DNA from: Ignavibacteria bacterium
Lineage (GTDB): Bacteria; Bacteroidota; Ignavibacteria; Tepidaquicellales; OLB5
Reading direction: 5' to 3'
NCBI GenBank assembly: GCA_019912545.1
Contig: JAIOIK010000110.1
Location: forward strand, 1-42,877
DNA: 42,877 nt
The position numbers and the translations under genes are program-made. The notes beneath the pieces were generated by a model. It worked only from the letters and a program-made list of their open reading frames with translations, did no database searches and was not told where the DNA came from. Numbering within the stretch: the first letter of the stretch is position 1; each line of letters begins with the position of its first letter. Positions 1-10,471 of this stretch are shown piece after piece.

Positions 1-342
1 GCTTACAATTTCTGGAAGCACAGGGCTTTTGTTGTTAACGATACTATAAATGATATTGTTCAAACCGCTGCTATGGAGGAAAGCTCAATTGGAGCAAAGT
101 TTGATTTGAAAAAAATAAATGAACGTGAATTTGAGATCAGGACCCATGCACCGCGACACTACTTCTATATTGAAGGTTTTGATAGCGAAAAGATAAGGCT
201 TGGCTTTCAGAATGAAGATATTTCAGTCGAGTTCACAGAATTCAATAACATCAATAAACCGGTCAGGCTTAAGCTTAAGCTGCTTTCAGATAATATACAA
301 TGTTACCTAGCAGATGAACTGAATTTCATTAAGATCTATTGA
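1..342 (+). CDS. C-terminal part of an unrecognised protein (5' end outside window)
   Basis: The reading frame is open from the first base to a TGA at 340-342, so the window holds the last 113 residues of a longer protein. A Met at 73 is in frame, but nothing suggests it is the true start because coding sequence continues upstream. The segment is soluble-looking, rich in charged and aromatic residues, with no membrane helix and no sorting domain. I do not recognise the family. It ends 7 nt before a glycosyltransferase start on the same strand, so it is probably part of the same polysaccharide-related operon. That functional link rests on neighbourhood only. Confidence 0.7.
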   Translation, partial: AYNFWKHRAFVVNDTINDIVQTAAMEESSIGAKFDLKKINEREFEIRTHAPRHYFYIEGFDSEKIRLGFQNEDISVEFTEFNNINKPVRLKLKLLSDNIQCYLADELNFIKIY

Positions 343-349
343 AAGCATT

Positions 350-1423
350 TTGAAGCCGAAAATACTTCATATCACACCTGATTTTGACTACGCATGCGGA
401 AGGTCCTATTATGTTTTTCTGCTTCTGAAATACTTGAAAAAGGATTTTAATGTAAGCCTCATTACCAACGGCGGGGATTCAATCCAGAGAATAGAAGAAG
501 AGAGCATAAAATACTCAATTTTTAGAGGGCTCAAATCCAAAAATCCCATTTCGGTTGCAAGGAACATAAGCGGGCTTAGAACATATATTAAAGAGCACAA
601 AATTGATATTGTTCATACTCATCACCGTTTGGCAGAATTCATTGCGCTGCAATCGATAAGTTCAAACGGCTCAGGGGAAGTAAGTTCAGTCTTTACTTCA
701 CTTAGCATTGTGAATAGAAAATTTAATGTTGAATTCAAGTCTGATAGGATTATAGCAGTAAGCAATTCTGTAAAAAATATGCTTACCGGAAAGTTTAACA
801 TAAGTGAGAGCAAAATAAGCCTGATTCCAAATTTTACCGATACCGATGAGATAAATGAACTGGAAATCATCGCGAAGCATACTAGGGATCATGGCAGATT
901 TTACAACATACTTGCAGTTGGCCGGTTTCATCATGAAAAGAATTTTGAGACATTGTTGAAGGCTATGAAAATTATCAACAATGCTAATTTCAGTTTAATC
1001 CTGGTTGGCGAAGGAGATAATGATATAGATTACAAGAAGTATATCTCAAAGCATAATTTAAACGTTGAGATCATTGTACCGCAGAAAAACCTGCTTCAGT
1101 ATTTCCTGGTTGCTGATCTATGCGTTCTTCCTTCCGTACGGGATCCTTTCCCTAATTTCATGCTGCAAGCCGGACTGCATAAGAAACCATTTATCGGTGC
1201 AAACGTTGACGGCATAGGAGAGCTGATAAATGATGGCGTTAACGGGTTACTCTTCAGAAGCGGAAATGAGAATGAACTGGCTGAAAAGATCATGAAATTT
1301 GCAACGGATCGGGATTTTGCGGCGCACTGCGCAGATAACCTGCATAAAGATGTCCTCAACAACTTTACTCAGGAATTTATAATTCCAAAGATCAAAAAAC
1401 TGTATAACAGCCTTCTAAAGTAG
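350..1423 (+). CDS. Glycosyltransferase family 4 (GT-B fold)
   Basis: A 357-residue retaining-type glycosyltransferase expected to move a sugar from a nucleotide-sugar donor onto a lipid-linked or polysaccharide acceptor at the cytoplasmic membrane. The N-terminus (KPKILHITPDF) is the usual first Rossmann strand. The C-terminal donor-binding half has AVGRFHHEKNFETLLKAM (about 190-210), LVGEGDND, and a PSVRDPFPNFMLQAG stretch followed by GVNGLLF. In most GT4 enzymes the last block carries the EX7E pair; here the two positions are Asp265 and Gln273, which is unusual. The start is a TTG at 350, 7 nt after the upstream stop; no in-frame ATG fits the N-terminus better. WecG/TagA-type transferase follows after 6 nt, so this is one operon. 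Substrate unknown. Confidence 0.88.
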   Translation: MKPKILHITPDFDYACGRSYYVFLLLKYLKKDFNVSLITNGGDSIQRIEEESIKYSIFRGLKSKNPISVARNISGLRTYIKEHKIDIVHTHHRLAEFIALQSISSNGSGEVSSVFTSLSIVNRKFNVEFKSDRIIAVSNSVKNMLTGKFNISESKISLIPNFTDTDEINELEIIAKHTRDHGRFYNILAVGRFHHEKNFETLLKAMKIINNANFSLILVGEGDNDIDYKKYISKHNLNVEIIVPQKNLLQYFLVADLCVLPSVRDPFPNFMLQAGLHKKPFIGANVDGIGELINDGVNGLLFRSGNENELAEKIMKFATDRDFAAHCADNLHKDVLNNFTQEFIIPKIKKLYNSLLK

Positions 1424-1429
1424 CCCACC

Positions 1430-2170
1430 ATGACCAATCCGGAAAAGATCAGTATTTACGGGCTGAAAATTGATGTAATAAACTACAGCATACTTTCCGA
1501 AAGAATTATTGGCGCAATTTCAAGTAATTCGAAACTGATAATAACATATGCTAATGCGAACACCATCAACAGGATTTTCAGAAATGAAGCTTTGAAAAAA
1601 GCAGTGCAGAGTTTCGATATTATTCATCCGGATGGTGTGGGAATATTTATTGCATCAAAGTTGCTTTTTGGCAAGGGCGGGTTGAGATCACGTTTTACCG
1701 GCTCTGATTACTATCCCATACTAATAAGTGAATTGATAAGGAACAATTTCAGCATTTCTTTTTATGGTGATACCAGAGAAACTCTGATGGAGATTCAAAA
1801 ACAACATACAGATCTAAATATTCGTAGCATGGTTCAATATGTACCTGATACACCGGGGGAAATGTACGAATCTTTAATGAATTCATCTGCGGATGTGCTG
1901 CTGGTTGGACATGGCTTCCCTCGGCAGGAAGAATGGATACTGAATAATCAGGGAAAGCTAAACTACAAAGTAATTATTGCTGTTGGCGACGGTATGAAAG
2001 TTTTTGCGGGGACAAAGTTAAGAGGTCCAAAAATTTTTAGTGTACTGGGGCTTGAATGGTTCATCAGATTTTTATCAAATCCTGTAAAATATTTCAAAAG
2101 ATATATTATCGGTAACCCCCTCTTTTTATATAGAATTATTATGCTAAAAATGCGTAATTTACGTGTATGA
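1430..2170 (+). CDS. WecG/TagA/CpsF-family glycosyltransferase (GT26)
   Basis: A 246-residue member of the WecG/TagA/CpsF family, which transfers N-acetylated (ManNAc-type) sugars to undecaprenyl-linked GlcNAc during wall or envelope polysaccharide assembly. Diagnostic blocks are visible in order: TYANANTINR near 40, HPDGVGI with the conserved Asp at 68, GHGFPRQEEWI around 165, VGDGMKVFAGTKLRGP around 187, and the C-terminal basic and aromatic tail GLEWFIRFLSNPVKYFKRY, which in the family binds the membrane. Length is typical. Its stop overlaps the start of the C25 peptidase by 4 bp (ATGA at 2167-2170), so translation is probably coupled. The exact sugar is not readable from sequence. Confidence 0.9.
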   Translation: MTNPEKISIYGLKIDVINYSILSERIIGAISSNSKLIITYANANTINRIFRNEALKKAVQSFDIIHPDGVGIFIASKLLFGKGGLRSRFTGSDYYPILISELIRNNFSISFYGDTRETLMEIQKQHTDLNIRSMVQYVPDTPGEMYESLMNSSADVLLVGHGFPRQEEWILNNQGKLNYKVIIAVGDGMKVFAGTKLRGPKIFSVLGLEWFIRFLSNPVKYFKRYIIGNPLFLYRIIMLKMRNLRV

Positions 2171-5100
2171 ATAACTGCAAAACCAGCATAATAACATTGA
2201 TATTATTGTTTATTTGCAGTCATACTTTTTCACAAAATTACAACTGGATTACCCCTAATAAAAATTACCTGAAACTCCATATTAATGATGATGGAATTTA
2301 CAGAGTTACACGAAATGAATTCACGCAATCAGGCATAAATACCTCGAACATCGATCCCAGAACGGTAAAAGTTTTCTGTTTGGGCGCCGAGATCCCGATT
2401 CATTTTTTCGGTGAGCAGGACGGTTCATTTGACGCAAACGATTACCTCGATTTTTACGGCAGGAGGAATTATGGAGGTCTAACCAGTACTTACCAGGCAT
2501 CATACGGACCTACTACTCTTGATTATACAACTGACGAGTATTATAATCTGTATTCCGATACAAGTGTTTATTGGATCGGATGGGACGGGACAAACGGAAT
2601 AAGATACAGTATTTCAACATTTAACGTGCAGAATGTATACGAGGACAGCTATTCATTTGAAAAAATACATTTTGAAAGAGATTCTGTTTACAGCCTTGGC
2701 ATAACGCTGAATGCACTATCAGATTACAGATATTTTAATAACGAAAAGATAACTGGAGAAGGATGGTTCTGGAGAAATTTAGGGCCTCAAAACGGTTATA
2801 CAATTTCGCAAAACTTCTCAATTCCTTTGCTGAGTTCACAGCCTGTTAACTGCACGCTCAGAGTTTTCGCCATTCCAAATTCAATTGACTCAACTTTCAA
2901 CGAACACAAATTAGCGTTACAGGTAAACCAAACTACAATAAGCACACTAGCAAAAGATGACTATACCAGGTTTGATACATCTTTAACTTTTTCAAGTTCA
3001 TTGCTGAACCAGTCAGGAAGCAATACTATTACTGCAACTTACCAGCCGACATTTGGAAATGTTTCGGCCACACCAAGCCTTTATTTCGATCTGCTTGAGA
3101 TTTCTTACCCGAAAATTTTCAGGTTTCAGAATAATGTTTGCACGATAAAACTGCAGGGAAACGATACAACCTCAGCGCTTTTTAAGGTAACCGGATATGT
3201 TCAGGGAAACCCGACATCTATTTACGATACCAGAAATAATATCAAGATCACTAATATTAGTTCTGATGCAGACACTTTGTTTTTCACAGGCAGGAAAAAT
3301 GGAGAGTTTGAAGTGATAAACCGTGATATTACTGAAAGGCCGTTCAGGATCCAGGCACGGCAAGTGCCAAACCTTGCATCAAACACTAACGGCGCCGATT
3401 ATATTGTAGTTTATAACAGGTTGTTTGATTCTCAGGCCGAGCAGCTTCGGTCCCATAGGCAAGTACACGACAATCTCCGGTCAGTTAAAGCATCAATTGA
3501 TGATATTACGGATATTTTTAATTTCGGAATGGAAGACCCGATTGCATTGAGACGCTTCATGAAACATGTTTACGATAACTGGCAGCTGCCGAAAGTTGGT
3601 TATGTTTGCCTGATGGGCAGAGGTTCATTAGACCCAAAAAATAACAGGCAAACCTCAAGTTTCTACAGAAATTTTATCCCGGTTTACGGTAATCCTCCAA
3701 CAGATGGTTATTTTGTGAATTTCAACTTTGGAGGTTTCACATATTTTCATAAGGCTGCAATAGGCCGTCTGCCTGTATATACAACTCAGGAAGCACAGGA
3801 TGTTGTTGATAAGATACTGGCATACGATAACGGGTCACAGCAGCCGCAAAGCTGGTGGAAGAATTTTGTTATGATAACAGGCGGACCTAACAGGTTTGAG
3901 CAGATTCAATACCAGACTCAATCCAACCAGTTTATTAATGAATATGTTGCTCCCCCGCCTATAACAGGCGTTTCAAGCAGAATATACAGAAACGATTCAG
4001 CAGGATACATTACTTTCAATTATGCCGATTCAATAAAACGCGAAATAAACCGGGGCGGACTATTTGTCAATTTTATAGGACATGCAGGCAGCCAGGATTG
4101 GGAACTGGGTTTGGAAGATCCCTCTACTCTTGCAAACATAAACAAATACCCGCTTGTATTAAGTATGACATGTTTTACCGGTAAGAATTCGGAAGCCAAC
4201 AGCAGGGGTTTTGGAGAAAAATTCGTTAATACACCGGGACGCGGAGCCATTGGGTTTTTGGGAAGTACAGGATGGAGTTTTTCGGGTGCAGGTAATGAAA
4301 TTAATAAATACATTTTCAAAGGATTTGCAAATGATACTATCAGAAGAACAGGCGCACTTATTAAATATGCAAATAATATTTTAGCCGCGGATTCAGGAAG
4401 CTTCCAGGTAAGGAATATGATAAACTGTTATGACTTGCTAGGCGACCCGGCATCAAAACTATTATTACCTACAACCCCTGAGTTTTTGATAGGCCAAACC
4501 GATTACAGGATAACTAATCATTACCCGCTTGTCGGCGAGCAGGTTACTTGGACGATCTTCCCGAAAAATTACGGGCTCTACGCCGCTAATTGCCTCATTA
4601 GATTTGAGATAATCAGAAATGGCTCAACATACAGATTCAAAGATACTCTTTTACAGAATTTCGGATACTTAGATACAACTTCTTATACTTTCAGTATAGA
4701 TACTATCGGGAATTATTCCCTTAAAGCAACACTTGATTACGATAATCATTACCCGCAGGAAATTCCGACTAATAATATTTTGATGATACCGCTCCCTCTC
4801 AGGAACATTTCATATACACCTCTTAAGCCTATAGATAATTCTGTTATAACAAGCGATTCGGTTGAATTCACAGGTTTGAATCCGCAGGTTGATCTGAGAA
4901 CAAATAGTGTAAAAATTATTCTTCAGTTAGATACTTCCGGCACATTTATTTCTCCTTTGTTTAATTATTCTGCAGCAAATATTACAGGCGTTTCAACCAA
5001 AGTTAAGTACAGGATTCCCTTTTTGGATTCAAACGTATTGTATTACTGGCGGACAAATGCAATAATTAATAACGATAGCGCAGGGTGGAGTGAGATCAAC

Positions 5101-7071
5101 AGATTTGTGTATAATCCTGCAGTAAGTTATTCATCAAGCCGGTCATTTAACTCATCAAACCGAAGCAGCAGAGTTAACAATGATTCAATTGTGACATTGT
5201 ACCCGAAGCTCAGAGGACAGTTTAAACCATCCGAGATAGACGGGCTCTATTACACCGGCAGCGGGTTCAAGTTAACCGAATATTCAGGGCAGCTTCAGAT
5301 AAAATCATACGGCAGTAATGCACAGGAAGCTTCTTATTTTATCATTAATAATTTTACTCATTACGCAGATGGCGGTGAAAATACCGGGTTAAGTGTCGTT
5401 AAAGTTCGCAAACTCACAGGAAGCGTTCTGGAATTCCGGAATTTCAGAATGTCAACTCCATCATCGTCGGATTCAGTCCTGAACTTTCTGAATACATTTG
5501 ATACAACTCAATATGTTATGATCGGAATGGCAGCTTATGTATCTATATCAGATAGCCTCAGGCAAACAGCGAAAAATAAGATTAAGCAGTTTGGTGCACA
5601 ATTAATTGATTCGGTCACGCGCTTCGATATTTTTGATTCATATGCTTTTATAGGCTACATTGGCGCTGCGCCTCCGAATATTTCAGAGGGATTTCACAGG
5701 TATAGCTCTAATGGCGTTTGGACTCCATCATTTGCAAATGCATCACCTGTATTTTTGAATACTGCCGGAAGCATTGAGTTTTCTGTAGGACCTGCACACA
5801 GGTGGAAGTATTTTTCATGGGATAGAATATTGCCCGGCGGTTCAAGTGTTAATTTTGACGTTAATGGAATTACAGCCGAAGGTACTTCTGTTGGGCTATA
5901 TTCAAACCTGAATACAAGCACTTTTACAAATCTGGATACACTCAGCACTTATACATACCCAAAGCTCAGCATGTTTGCTTTGCTTGAAATTGATACACTA
6001 AGCGGCCTGGTCTCACCCGAATTCAATTCGATGTACTTTAAGTACACGCCCCCTGCTGAGATTATCCCGGATAATTACTCTTTCATAAAGAGTGATTCCA
6101 TAGTTAACGAAGGTGAACAGGTTACAATATCAGTAAAGAATTATAATATAGGGTTTGTCCCGGCAGGGATTGTTGTGTACAAATGGACCGCCAATGGACC
6201 CTCAGGGCTTGTTACACTTAAACAGGATACTATTTACACTCCCTTGCAGCCTGATAGCAGCTATACTTCTGCAGTAACATTCAACACTGCCGGACTTAAA
6301 GATCCGCAGTTGACAATTGATACACTTGATATAAATTTTGAAACAGGTATGCTCAACTTCCAGAATGATTACTATCCATTCAATAATTTTGCATTTACAA
6401 GTATAATAATTGTTGGAGATACTACCGGCCCAAGAATTGAAGCCTTGTTTGATGGAGTCAAAATATCTGATGGTGATCTTATCCCGCGGAAACCGGAGAT
6501 CTCGTTTAAGTTCTTTGATGACGGCAAGCTTGATTACAGTATTGAAGATACATCGGGAATATTCATTAAGCTGGATAGCAGAAGGATTTATTATAATATC
6601 GGGGGACAGCTGAACCCTGAGATCTCCTTTACGGCAGTAAACGATCTTAGCCTGAAGACACTTGTTATATTTAAACCCGACCTATCAGAAGGGGACCATA
6701 TGATTCAATTCATAGGTACAGATAAAGACGGCCACAGGGATACACTTCCAAATAACTTCAAGGTAAGTTATGATTTTGTTGTAAGGGATCTTTACAATTA
6801 CCCGAATCCGATGACCACCAATACCTATTTTACATTTAATTTGTTTGCACCAGAGCGGCCAGAGGCATGCCGTATAAAAATATATACAGTTGCAGGAAGG
6901 CTGATCAAAGAAATTTCATCCCCGGCAAATGTAGGCTTTAACCAGATATTCTGGGACGGCTTGGATAGCGACGGCGAAAGCATGGCAAACGGCATTTACC
7001 TGTATAAGCTTATTCTTGAGGGAAGCGGCAAAACAGAATCATCCATCCAAAAACTTGCAATTTTAAGATAA
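2167..7071 (+). CDS. Large C25 (gingipain-type) cysteine peptidase, PorU/PorU2-like T9SS sortase candidate
   Basis: A 1,634-residue secreted protein. Residues 1-22 form a signal peptide ending SHTFSQ. The peptidase C25 domain lies at about 390-780, with the catalytic dyad seen as FIGHAG (His639) and LSMTCFTG (Cys669). After it come an Ig/Fn3-like segment with a YYWR signature (about 890-985), a segment at about 1040-1170 that reads like an ILEI/FAM3 domain (KVRKLTG ... SVLNFLNTF ... DSYAFIGYIG), more beta-rich domains, and a FlgD-like C-terminal domain starting at YNYPNPMTTNTYF and ending in LAILR. PorU is the T9SS surface sortase that cleaves cargo sorting domains and joins cargo to A-LPS. 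Classical PorU is nearer 1,160 residues, so PorU2 or another C25 surface peptidase is also possible. Start overlaps the WecG/TagA gene. Confidence 0.8.
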   Translation: MNNCKTSIITLILLFICSHTFSQNYNWITPNKNYLKLHINDDGIYRVTRNEFTQSGINTSNIDPRTVKVFCLGAEIPIHFFGEQDGSFDANDYLDFYGRRNYGGLTSTYQASYGPTTLDYTTDEYYNLYSDTSVYWIGWDGTNGIRYSISTFNVQNVYEDSYSFEKIHFERDSVYSLGITLNALSDYRYFNNEKITGEGWFWRNLGPQNGYTISQNFSIPLLSSQPVNCTLRVFAIPNSIDSTFNEHKLALQVNQTTISTLAKDDYTRFDTSLTFSSSLLNQSGSNTITATYQPTFGNVSATPSLYFDLLEISYPKIFRFQNNVCTIKLQGNDTTSALFKVTGYVQGNPTSIYDTRNNIKITNISSDADTLFFTGRKNGEFEVINRDITERPFRIQARQVPNLASNTNGADYIVVYNRLFDSQAEQLRSHRQVHDNLRSVKASIDDITDIFNFGMEDPIALRRFMKHVYDNWQLPKVGYVCLMGRGSLDPKNNRQTSSFYRNFIPVYGNPPTDGYFVNFNFGGFTYFHKAAIGRLPVYTTQEAQDVVDKILAYDNGSQQPQSWWKNFVMITGGPNRFEQIQYQTQSNQFINEYVAPPPITGVSSRIYRNDSAGYITFNYADSIKREINRGGLFVNFIGHAGSQDWELGLEDPSTLANINKYPLVLSMTCFTGKNSEANSRGFGEKFVNTPGRGAIGFLGSTGWSFSGAGNEINKYIFKGFANDTIRRTGALIKYANNILAADSGSFQVRNMINCYDLLGDPASKLLLPTTPEFLIGQTDYRITNHYPLVGEQVTWTIFPKNYGLYAANCLIRFEIIRNGSTYRFKDTLLQNFGYLDTTSYTFSIDTIGNYSLKATLDYDNHYPQEIPTNNILMIPLPLRNISYTPLKPIDNSVITSDSVEFTGLNPQVDLRTNSVKIILQLDTSGTFISPLFNYSAANITGVSTKVKYRIPFLDSNVLYYWRTNAIINNDSAGWSEINRFVYNPAVSYSSSRSFNSSNRSSRVNNDSIVTLYPKLRGQFKPSEIDGLYYTGSGFKLTEYSGQLQIKSYGSNAQEASYFIINNFTHYADGGENTGLSVVKVRKLTGSVLEFRNFRMSTPSSSDSVLNFLNTFDTTQYVMIGMAAYVSISDSLRQTAKNKIKQFGAQLIDSVTRFDIFDSYAFIGYIGAAPPNISEGFHRYSSNGVWTPSFANASPVFLNTAGSIEFSVGPAHRWKYFSWDRILPGGSSVNFDVNGITAEGTSVGLYSNLNTSTFTNLDTLSTYTYPKLSMFALLEIDTLSGLVSPEFNSMYFKYTPPAEIIPDNYSFIKSDSIVNEGEQVTISVKNYNIGFVPAGIVVYKWTANGPSGLVTLKQDTIYTPLQPDSSYTSAVTFNTAGLKDPQLTIDTLDINFETGMLNFQNDYYPFNNFAFTSIIIVGDTTGPRIEALFDGVKISDGDLIPRKPEISFKFFDDGKLDYSIEDTSGIFIKLDSRRIYYNIGGQLNPEISFTAVNDLSLKTLVIFKPDLSEGDHMIQFIGTDKDGHRDTLPNNFKVSYDFVVRDLYNYPNPMTTNTYFTFNLFAPERPEACRIKIYTVAGRLIKEISSPANVGFNQIFWDGLDSDGESMANGIYLYKLILEGSGKTESSIQKLAILR

Positions 7072-9774
7072 ATGAAAAAGATATATTATTTCATTTTGTT
7101 ATGCATTCTTTCAGCCACCGCTTCTTCACAGTGGGTGCCGCTTAACAGCGGGACATCAAACAGGATAATCGGAATTTTCTTTGTTAATTCCACCACCGGA
7201 ACCGCACTTGAGTTCAACGGGAATGTGCGTAAAACCACAAACAGCGGTTTGAACTGGACCGCACAGCCAAGCGGAATTAACCAAAACACTTTTGGAATAT
7301 TTTACATCAATGAAAGTACCGGCTTCCTTTGCGGTGACGGAGGAATACACAGATCTACTGACGGCGGAACAAGCTGGAATATTATTTCTGCCCCTTCAAG
7401 TTACTACAGAGGTTTGTACTTTACTAATGCTTTGACCGGTTATGCGGGAGGAAGTCCGGGTGTTATTGCAAAAACCACTAACGGCGGGGCAAACTGGTTT
7501 GCACTTAGCACAGGCACAACTGATTTCATATTCCGTATAAAATTTGCAAATGAAATGACAGGATATGCAGCTACAGTTGAAGGTAACATTTTAAAGACTG
7601 TTGACGGGGGAAGCAATTGGACGATCTCGACAATTGGAGTAACTGCATCTTTTTACGGTCTGGCAGTTTTAAACGCAGATACGGTAACTGTATGCGGAGA
7701 CAACGGAGTAATGGCAAGAACCACAAGTGGCGGAGCAAACTGGACGGTTCAAAATAGTTCTACAAATAATCTGCTCTTCAATCTCGTTTTTGTAAATTCA
7801 GAAACCGGTACTGCGTGCGGCCACAACAACACAATTATTAGAACAACTAACGGAGGGGCAAACTGGATCCATCAATCAAGTGGTTTGACGGGAGTTGGCA
7901 TTGAAGGAGTATTCTTTACCTCTGCACAAACTGGATTTTTAACATGCACTGATGGAAATATTTTATATACAACCACCGGAGGCTTTCCCCTCCCGACCGC
8001 ACCGGTTCTTATATATCCTGTAAACGGAGCAATCAATATTAGCCCCACAGCAACTTTAGATTGGGATACAGCAACTGCAGGAAGAACGTACAGAGTTCAA
8101 TTAGGGCCTGATTCAAATTTTGCTACACCGCTGCTCGATTCTCAACTGATAGTTCAAAGCAGTATGCAAATACCTTCAGGACTCCTGGGTACAAATACGC
8201 TTTATTATTGGCGCGTTCAGAGTGAAAATGCCGGCGGTATCGGTCCGTGGTCATTAACTTTCAGGTTCAGAACTCTGCCGCCTATTCCTTTAGCCCCGGG
8301 GCTGCTTCTTCCTGTTGATGGAGCATCAAATGTTTCTTTAACGCCGCTATTTGACTGGGATAGTAATTCAACTGCTGTTTACTATACTCTGCAGGCATCT
8401 CTTGATACTGGTTTTTCCAATCCGCCAGTATTTATCAACAACATACCGCATTCTTTTCTTAATTTGACAAGTCCTGCGCTTCAGAATAATTACAGGTATT
8501 ATTGGAGAGTTAACACAACTAATCCTGCAGGAACAGGTCCATGGTCTGCAGTATTTAATTTCACAACTGTTTTCGGGCCACCTTCGGCGCCAACTCATTT
8601 AGCTCCCCCTGATAATTCAACAGGCATTAGCCTGACGCCGGCCCTTGACTGGGTTGATGATATCTCGGCGATATCATACGGTCTGCAGCTTTCGCAGGAT
8701 TCAACATTTGCAGCTTCGCTATTGATTGATACAGCAGGAGTAGTTCCATCAACATTGACTCTCAGGCCGGGATTGCTGTTAAATGTAAGGAAATATTACT
8801 GGCGTGTGAGGACATTGAATTCTTTCGGGTTGAGCGCATGGTCTGCTCCATGGAATTTTACGACACTGCTCGCACCACCCATAGCTCCGGTTCTGGTTGA
8901 CCCGCCAAATAATTCGGTAGATATTTCTACTACTCCCACTTTAGATTGGGATACAGTTGAATTTGCTGAGACTTATCGTGTTCAGGTTTCAACCAGCCCG
9001 GTATTTAGTGATACTCTGATAAATTCCGGCGGGAATATCTTTTCGCAATTCAATGTTCCCGGAGGATTTCTTTTAAACAATACTACTTATTACTGGCGTG
9101 TAAACGGAACAAATACTGCAGGTACAGGGCCATACTCTGCAATTTGGAATTTCAAGACAATTGTATCTCCCCCGGTTGCGGCGCCGGTACTGCTCGCTCC
9201 GCCCAACGGGGCTGCAAACGTAGTATTAACCCCAACTCTTGACTGGAATGATGTTTACGGTGTGACAGGATACAAGGTTAACGTTTCAGAGGATCCTCTG
9301 TTCAATACCGTGCTGATCGATTCCACAATTGGCACTGCTTCACAGTTTACAATACCTGCCGGCAAGTTAAGCGGAAGCACAAGTTATTACTGGCGCATTC
9401 GCGGATTTAACGTGGGTGGCTTCGGGCCGTGGAGCGTTACGTGGAATTTCAATACAATGGTTATTGGAATAAGCGTGATCGGAAATGAAATCCCGAAGGA
9501 GTTCAGGCTGTACAATAATTACCCTAATCCTTTCAATCCCCTAACAAAGATAAAGTTTGATATTCCGGCAGTAAGCGGTGTGAATTCACTTAGCGTCAGG
9601 CTCACAGTTTATGATATCACAGGGAAAGAAGCCGCTATAATACTGAACAAAGATATGCAGCCCGGAAAGTATGAAGCCGACTGGAATGCATCCGGGTTTG
9701 CTTCAGGTATTTATTTTTACAGACTTGAGACAAGTGAGTTTGTTGACATAAAGAAAATGGTATTGCTTAAATAA
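7072..9774 (+). CDS. T9SS-secreted surface protein: Ycf48/BNR-type propeller plus five Fn3-like repeats
   Basis: A 900-residue secreted protein whose ATG directly abuts the TAA of the C25 peptidase. A signal peptide (to about residue 19) is followed by a beta-propeller at about 20-305 built of repeats such as KTTNGGANWF and RSTDGGTSWN. Five modules of about 97 residues then start near 309, 407, 504, 603 and 702, each with a TPxLDWD-like strand, a central YYWRV strand and a closing GPWS..WNF strand, as in Fn3-type folds. The last 90 residues are a T9SS type A sorting domain (NNYPNPFNPLTKIKFDIP, ending KKMVLLK). It is likely surface-bound or released cargo of the T9SS. No catalytic motif is seen; a binding or adhesion role is inference. 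Confidence 0.85.
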   Translation: MKKIYYFILLCILSATASSQWVPLNSGTSNRIIGIFFVNSTTGTALEFNGNVRKTTNSGLNWTAQPSGINQNTFGIFYINESTGFLCGDGGIHRSTDGGTSWNIISAPSSYYRGLYFTNALTGYAGGSPGVIAKTTNGGANWFALSTGTTDFIFRIKFANEMTGYAATVEGNILKTVDGGSNWTISTIGVTASFYGLAVLNADTVTVCGDNGVMARTTSGGANWTVQNSSTNNLLFNLVFVNSETGTACGHNNTIIRTTNGGANWIHQSSGLTGVGIEGVFFTSAQTGFLTCTDGNILYTTTGGFPLPTAPVLIYPVNGAINISPTATLDWDTATAGRTYRVQLGPDSNFATPLLDSQLIVQSSMQIPSGLLGTNTLYYWRVQSENAGGIGPWSLTFRFRTLPPIPLAPGLLLPVDGASNVSLTPLFDWDSNSTAVYYTLQASLDTGFSNPPVFINNIPHSFLNLTSPALQNNYRYYWRVNTTNPAGTGPWSAVFNFTTVFGPPSAPTHLAPPDNSTGISLTPALDWVDDISAISYGLQLSQDSTFAASLLIDTAGVVPSTLTLRPGLLLNVRKYYWRVRTLNSFGLSAWSAPWNFTTLLAPPIAPVLVDPPNNSVDISTTPTLDWDTVEFAETYRVQVSTSPVFSDTLINSGGNIFSQFNVPGGFLLNNTTYYWRVNGTNTAGTGPYSAIWNFKTIVSPPVAAPVLLAPPNGAANVVLTPTLDWNDVYGVTGYKVNVSEDPLFNTVLIDSTIGTASQFTIPAGKLSGSTSYYWRIRGFNVGGFGPWSVTWNFNTMVIGISVIGNEIPKEFRLYNNYPNPFNPLTKIKFDIPAVSGVNSLSVRLTVYDITGKEAAIILNKDMQPGKYEADWNASGFASGIYFYRLETSEFVDIKKMVLLK

Positions 9775-9805: not shown

Positions 9806-10471
9806 TTGTTAAAGAAATTATTCGATAATACAAGCAAAAATTCCCTTGCAAACAAATTCCGCAGAAAGCGTTTCAGGATATTTCTTGAATTAATAGAAAG
9901 TATTCCCAAACCGGTTAAGATACTGGATATCGGAGGCACTGAGAATTTCTGGATCCAGATGGGACTAACTGATCCTAAGGCAGCAAAAATCACAATTGTT
10001 AATATTGATGAACCGGATGGCGGCAAAATGCAGGACCTGCCAAACATGGAATTCATAAAAGGCGATGCACGTGACGAAAATTTGTACAAGGCCGGTGAAT
10101 TTGATATTATTTTTTCAAACTCGGTGATAGAGCACATTAATGATGAAAGCGGACAGGGGCTGATGGCTAAACTAATCAGAACATACGGCAGGAAGTATTT
10201 TGTCCAGACACCGGCCCGGTCAATTCCAATTGAGCCGCATTTCCTCTTTCCGTATTTCCAGTTTCTTCCCCGAAGTATAAAGCTATTTCTGGTTATGCAT
10301 TTCAATATGGGTTGGTTTAAGAAATGTAATTCAAAAGAAGAGGCAGTAGAACTTGTTGGATCAATCAGGCTGCTGAATAAAAACCAAATGCAGCAATTTT
10401 TCGCGGATGCTGAGATCCTCACCGAGAGATTTTTACGAATTCCGAAATCATACATTGCTATAAAGAAATAG
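9806..10471 (+). CDS. Class I SAM-dependent methyltransferase
   Basis: A 221-residue soluble methyltransferase. Motif I is seen as ILDIGGTENFW (about 38-48), an acidic strand end as VNIDEPDGG, and the post-II/IV region as FDIIFSNSVIEHI, as in Methyltransf_11/23 proteins. A TTG at 9806 is the only plausible start: an in-frame TAA sits at 9788-9790 and no ATG lies between. It is 31 nt downstream of the surface-protein stop on the same strand, so it probably closes the glycosyltransferase/C25 peptidase operon. Methylation of a glycan or lipid intermediate fits the context but the substrate cannot be read. The stop is followed at once by a second stop (TAG TGA). Confidence 0.8.
   Translation: MLKKLFDNTSKNSLANKFRRKRFRIFLELIESIPKPVKILDIGGTENFWIQMGLTDPKAAKITIVNIDEPDGGKMQDLPNMEFIKGDARDENLYKAGEFDIIFSNSVIEHINDESGQGLMAKLIRTYGRKYFVQTPARSIPIEPHFLFPYFQFLPRSIKLFLVMHFNMGWFKKCNSKEEAVELVGSIRLLNKNQMQQFFADAEILTERFLRIPKSYIAIKK

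Follow-up and report, generated by a model that had tools for sequence, protein, structure and literature searches.

What does an ILEI/FAM3 (GG) domain, a fold that binds sugars in animal proteins, do within a predicted surface peptidase of an Ignavibacteria bacterium? The question is raised by a 1634 aa protein encoded on contig JAIOIK010000110.1 (assembly GCA_019912545.1). The window analysed here is this whole stretch of 42,877 nucleotides. According to the original prediction, the domain is a glycan-binding module that could hold the sugar acceptor in a protein related to PorU, the enzyme that links cargo of the type 9 secretion system (T9SS) to A-LPS. In a literature search that included few subscription journals, no paper on ILEI domains in bacterial peptidases, no paper using the name PorU2 and no biochemistry of the C25-ILEI family were found. 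The general architecture is probably already visible in domain databases. New are the nested jelly roll, the linkage to a WecG-type gene and the split of the family by its sugar-contact residues.

Domain architecture of the C25-ILEI protein

The gene and the domains that it encodes are as follows:

2167-7071, plus strand: open reading frame of the C25-ILEI protein, 1634 aa, PorU2-like, below the curated cut-offs of both PorU and PorU2
3400-4461, plus strand: peptidase C25 domain, residues 412-765 (PF01364, 214.8 bits, E 2.9e-63)
4081-4083, plus strand: putative catalytic His639, invariant, aligned with PorU 6za2
4171-4173, plus strand: putative catalytic Cys669, invariant, aligned with PorU 6za2
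4804-5133, plus strand: FN3-like domain, residues about 880-989 (model residues 14-123 compared with FN3 domains, Z about 9)
5170-5280, plus strand: N-terminal part of a split jelly-roll sandwich, residues about 1002-1038 (predicted model, inferred boundaries)
5281-5760, plus strand: ILEI/FAM3 (GG) domain, residues about 1039-1198, inserted in the predicted jelly roll (PF15711 and fold matches; Pfam core 5386-5667)
5761-6051, plus strand: C-terminal part of the jelly-roll sandwich, residues about 1199-1295 (predicted model; G1208-P1209 and W1213 conserved)
6799-7068, plus strand: type A T9SS C-terminal sorting domain, residues about 1545-1634 (TIGR04183, 28.4 bits, cut-off 23; FlgD_ig in Pfam)

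The protein belongs to the C25 peptidases by its PF01364 score and by the presence of the His/Cys dyad. In the alignment, His639 and Cys669 are invariant in 28/28 sequences from the order of the window organism and in 46/46 others (74/74).

The segment at 5287-5672 (residues 1041-1168) had been read as ILEI/FAM3, and both a PF15711 match and the predicted fold agree with this reading. The HMM search returned residues 1074-1167 with 38.9 bits (cut-off 27, E 1.2e-9), the excised piece gave an E value of 1e-10, and this domain is the only PF15711 match in the 3.66-Mb genome. An AlphaFold2 model of residues 1036-1178 was built on 67 family sequences (pLDDT 87.4, pTM 0.81). In Foldseek, this model matched the POMGnT1 stem, FAM3A/B/C and the TMEM2 GG domain with E values from 3.6e-7 to 5.9e-5, the next match following at 0.32. 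In VIA-align, Z was 13.6-16.9 to FAM3, POMGnT1 and TMEM2 entries and 3.6 to the next family. A chance domain call is ruled out by the PF15711 score together with both structure searches. The original prediction was to be given up if PF15711 did not match and the fold was unlike that of FAM3C and POMGnT1; a match and a like fold were found. The presence of a domain with the FAM3/POMGnT1-stem fold is confirmed at the level of the predicted model.

The closest relative of known structure is the stem (GG) domain of POMGnT1 (PDB 5ggf/5ggj/5ggl/5ggn). Its fold is the same (Z 16.5-16.9; 127-129 residues superposed at an rmsd of 1.9-2.0, with 22% identity), and by sequence, too, it is the best PDB match (E 0.046). 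However, the POMGnT1 stem is fused to a glycosyltransferase, the window domain to a peptidase. FAM3A/B/C (ILEI, PANDER) share the fold (Z 14.4-15.8) and the Pfam family. They are free-standing, secreted animal proteins, whereas the window domain is devoid of cysteine and of their contact residues. The same fold was found by BFVD matches in tail fibre ILEI domains of phages, which, unlike the window protein, are adhesins without a peptidase.

According to a second predicted model (residues 867-1331, pLDDT 88.1), the full ILEI structural unit is a little bigger than the Pfam core and comprises residues about 1039-1198. The segments on both its sides, residues about 1002-1038 and 1199-1295, align jointly with jelly rolls over about 117 residues (model range 136-429). 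Matches are TmCBM61 (Z 9.8, 117 aligned residues across model positions 142-428) and, at Z 10.7, the C-terminal domain of PNGase; the jelly roll of the window protein is split by the ILEI insertion in these alignments. In the model, ILEI appears to be inserted into a CBM-like jelly-roll sandwich. Both matches represent common folds, and a Z near 10 is no demonstration of sugar binding.

Linkage to surface polysaccharide genes

As the original prediction had noted, the gene is encoded right behind glycosyltransferases:

350-1423, plus strand: GT4-type glycosyltransferase gene (PF00534, E 6.4e-26), a conserved neighbour in the genus
1430-2170, plus strand: glycosyltransferase gene of the WecG/TagA/CpsF family (PF03808), immediately upstream; its last 4 bases overlap the C25-ILEI start

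This proximity proves to be a conserved linkage among relatives. The WecG-type gene is the only PF03808 match in the genome. Such a gene recurs directly upstream of C25-ILEI in the majority of the order's genomes, and the same arrangement is seen in other families of the class. In the 20 same-class genomes with both genes, it lies at most 15 kb from the ILEI-C25 gene in 18 cases, 16 of them within 6.5 kb. By contrast, the PorU-type C25 gene, taken as the best C25 match per genome and assumed to be PorU, is within 15 kb of WecG in 0/20 of the same genomes (chance expectation 0.21). The corresponding Fisher value is 3e-9, which overstates independence since the genomes are related. Elsewhere in the phylum, the upstream gene often, but not always, encodes a GT2, GT4 or GT9 glycosyltransferase, a sugar epimerase or a Wzy ligase. 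A single upstream gene family throughout the phylum is therefore ruled out: the WecG linkage holds in the class of the window organism, and upstream genes differ outside it.

The linkage of the C25-ILEI family to surface polysaccharide genes is real and favours a function connected with surface polysaccharide. It is no proof that the product of these genes is the substrate of the enzyme.

Further genes around the locus are conserved within the genus. Window positions 1-342 hold the end of a gene of about 550 codons, which keeps its place ahead of the two glycosyltransferase genes. The gene at 7072-9774, encoding a 900 aa protein that carries a T9SS tail as well as repeats of the YCF48-like and FN3 types, and the gene at 9806-10471 are found directly downstream of C25-ILEI throughout the genus.

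The sugar contacts of the ILEI pocket

POMGnT1 contacts its sugar through Arg129, Asp179 and Arg207, residues also conserved among the GlcNAc-binding FAM3 proteins; FAM3A and FAM3C are both sugar-binding and have kept them (PMC9802357). In the CBM_1 of a streptococcal phage Tal protein, which has a POMGnT1-stem-like fold and binds surface sugars, the equivalents of Arg129 and Asp179 are retained (PMC9437275). This CBM_1 belongs to a phage adhesin without a peptidase, unlike the window domain. The contact residues were taken from these two papers, and their states were read from an alignment that included the POMGnT1 segment. In the window protein, the three positions are occupied by other residues:

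5383-5385, plus strand: Thr1073 at the position of POMGnT1 Arg129 (alignment)
5533-5535, plus strand: Ala1123 at the position of POMGnT1 Asp179 (alignment)
5632-5634, plus strand: Phe1156 at the position of POMGnT1 Arg207 (alignment)

The same holds for the entire order: no equivalent of R129, D179 or R207 was found in any of its 29 aligned ILEI domains. Outside the order, the picture is different. Among 38 bacterial domains, not counting POMGnT1, R129 is present in 23 and D179 and R207 in 35 each; 20 domains have the full set. In further, distant ILEI clades, the contacts are mostly missing, and since several such clades lack them, a lectin function cannot hold for the whole family. The order of the window organism forms one clade in the tree (SH-aLRT 99). 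Therefore, a single loss of the contacts is the most parsimonious explanation, with some uncertainty about the root.

Because all three contacts are absent from the window protein and from the whole order, glycan binding by this pocket in the manner of POMGnT1 is unlikely, as judged from the aligned residues. The proposal of a glycan-binding module is thus borne out in part: many relatives have kept the contacts, and POMGnT1-type binding is unsupported for the window protein itself. The invariant dyad and the absent contacts together indicate that the order has kept the peptidase and not the pocket. The loss of three contacts leaves room for binding of another glycan.

Two alternative readings of the window domain start from this loss. 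According to the first, which is close to the original proposal, ILEI would still bind the glycan acceptor, now via a pocket remodelled to have an aromatic side chain where POMGnT1 has Arg207. Position 1156 is indeed F, W or Y in 28/29 domains of the order, the fold is intact and the glycosyltransferase neighbour has been retained. However, apart from the loss of all three known contacts, positions 1073 and 1123 are free to vary, with 8 and 11 residue types, respectively, among the domains of the order, and no invariant polar pocket residues are present at the contact sites. We regard such a remodelled acceptor site as improbable.

According to the second, ILEI would be a degenerate structural spacer in the order, the protein a secreted protease or an enzyme processing C-terminal sorting domains, and the glycosyltransferase linkage a historical relic. 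Mean pairwise identity within the order is lower in ILEI (0.37) than in the C25 domain (0.55) or the sorting domain (0.56), and the sugar contacts are lost. A mere relic is harder to reconcile with the maintained WecG adjacency, including the 4-base overlap in the window, or with the conserved scaffold residues and the presence of the domain, always at the same place, in all full-length relatives retrieved from the order. We give this reading about one chance in five.

Relation to PorU and PorU2

The window protein has a C25 domain with the His/Cys dyad and a type A T9SS signal in common with PorU (NF033707, PDB 6za2). Against the PorU model NF033707, it scores 344.9 bits, below the cut-off of 420, with about 736 of 1095 positions covered. 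Against the PorU2 model NF052324, it scores 349.8 bits, likewise below the cut-off (450), with a near end-to-end match over residues 9-870. This model represents 879 N-terminal positions and ends before the ILEI region of the window protein. Other ILEI-C25 proteins also score best with NF052324. By these profile scores, the window protein would be assigned to a PorU2-like family distinct from PorU.

A separate PorU is encoded in the same genome. It matches NF033707 over its full length with 901.9 bits, lacks ILEI, unlike the window protein, and shares a contig with the best PorV match, to which it is adjacent. A third C25 protein of the genome has 745 aa. That the window protein is the genuine PorU sortase of this organism, transferring T9SS cargo to A-LPS, is very improbable, because the match of its C25 domain and N-terminal region to NF033707 stays at 345 bits against 420 and a 902-bit PorU elsewhere in the genome already contradicts it. 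Hence, the original assignment stands as far as a C25 peptidase related to PorU is concerned, and it does not extend to the cargo-to-A-LPS enzyme itself.

The T9SS of the genome comprises SprA, PorV and PorU, and 150 T9SS tails are among the matches listed. Having a C-terminal type A sorting domain and a T9SS encoded in the same genome, the window protein has the features of a type A T9SS cargo.

Proposed role of the C25-ILEI protein

On balance, we favour by a modest measure a surface-located, T9SS-exported, PorU2-like C25 peptidase, in which ILEI serves as a lectin for polysaccharide in many members and in which its pocket has been lost or rebuilt in the order of the window organism. The protein would be exported by the T9SS to the cell surface and act there as a cysteine peptidase distinct from PorU. 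The hallmark of the family would be the ILEI/FAM3 domain set in a CBM-like jelly roll between peptidase and sorting signal. Since many members keep the sugar-contact residues, ILEI is most likely a lectin there. It would present to the His/Cys site a surface polysaccharide that the neighbouring glycosyltransferases produce. The outcome could be a sortase-like coupling of cargo to sugar or a docking of the enzyme on the glycan.

In the order of the window organism, the peptidase and the glycosyltransferase neighbour would have been kept, while the sugar pocket of ILEI would have been lost or rebuilt. Here, ILEI is most likely a structural or protein-contact module, or it has a pocket with a changed ligand, the aromatic residue replacing Arg207. 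Any glycan contact of the window protein would fall to the jelly roll, although a remodelled aromatic pocket might also provide it.

In P. gingivalis, PorU depends on a separate protein, PorZ, that presents the sugar in trans (PMC8545088). By contrast, the widespread C25-ILEI family, tied genetically to one glycosyltransferase, carries a predicted sugar-binding fold in cis. In a bolder version of our reading, C25-ILEI might be a second T9SS transpeptidase family, whose acceptor is provided by the WecG-type glycosyltransferase of the operon and recognized in cis by the nested lectin, the pocket having been re-specialized or lost in the order of the window organism. We put this version forward tentatively and consider it rather doubtful. 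If the built-in sugar-binding fold works, the family would offer Bacteroidota a different route for anchoring or sorting surface proteins, beyond the pathogens studied so far. In addition, the animal FAM3/POMGnT1 domain gains a broad bacterial context with intact sugar contacts in many members, and the order of the window organism provides natural contact mutants for comparison.

Distribution and variants

An ILEI match was present in 106 of 392 sampled genomes of the phylum. Whether other C25 proteins carry the domain had been raised along with the original prediction; it was found between C25 and the T9SS signal in the PorU2-like family across Bacteroidota. Nearly all ILEI proteins retrieved in full have the order C25, ILEI, T9SS tail. 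The named relatives are metagenome-assembled genomes of Ignavibacteria and Bacteroidetes.

A clear exception was found in genome G062 (L095:5949-7748), where ILEI is fused in front of a phosphatidylserine decarboxylase and C25 is missing. All three POMGnT1 contacts are present in this domain (RG, CD, YR). At L110:1190-5439 (genome G237), C25 and ILEI are split between two overlapping frames and there is no sorting domain, which indicates a broken copy or a sequence error. The genus of the window organism has a single C25-ILEI gene. Tandem or close C25-ILEI pairs occur in the sister family of this order and in two distant lineages (L033, L034, L039, L041, L046, L050, L052-L056; L115, L121). Furthermore, three C25 proteins of 1660-2400 aa contain two ILEI domains each (L037:6202-12576, L094:166-7362 and L124:1707-6692).
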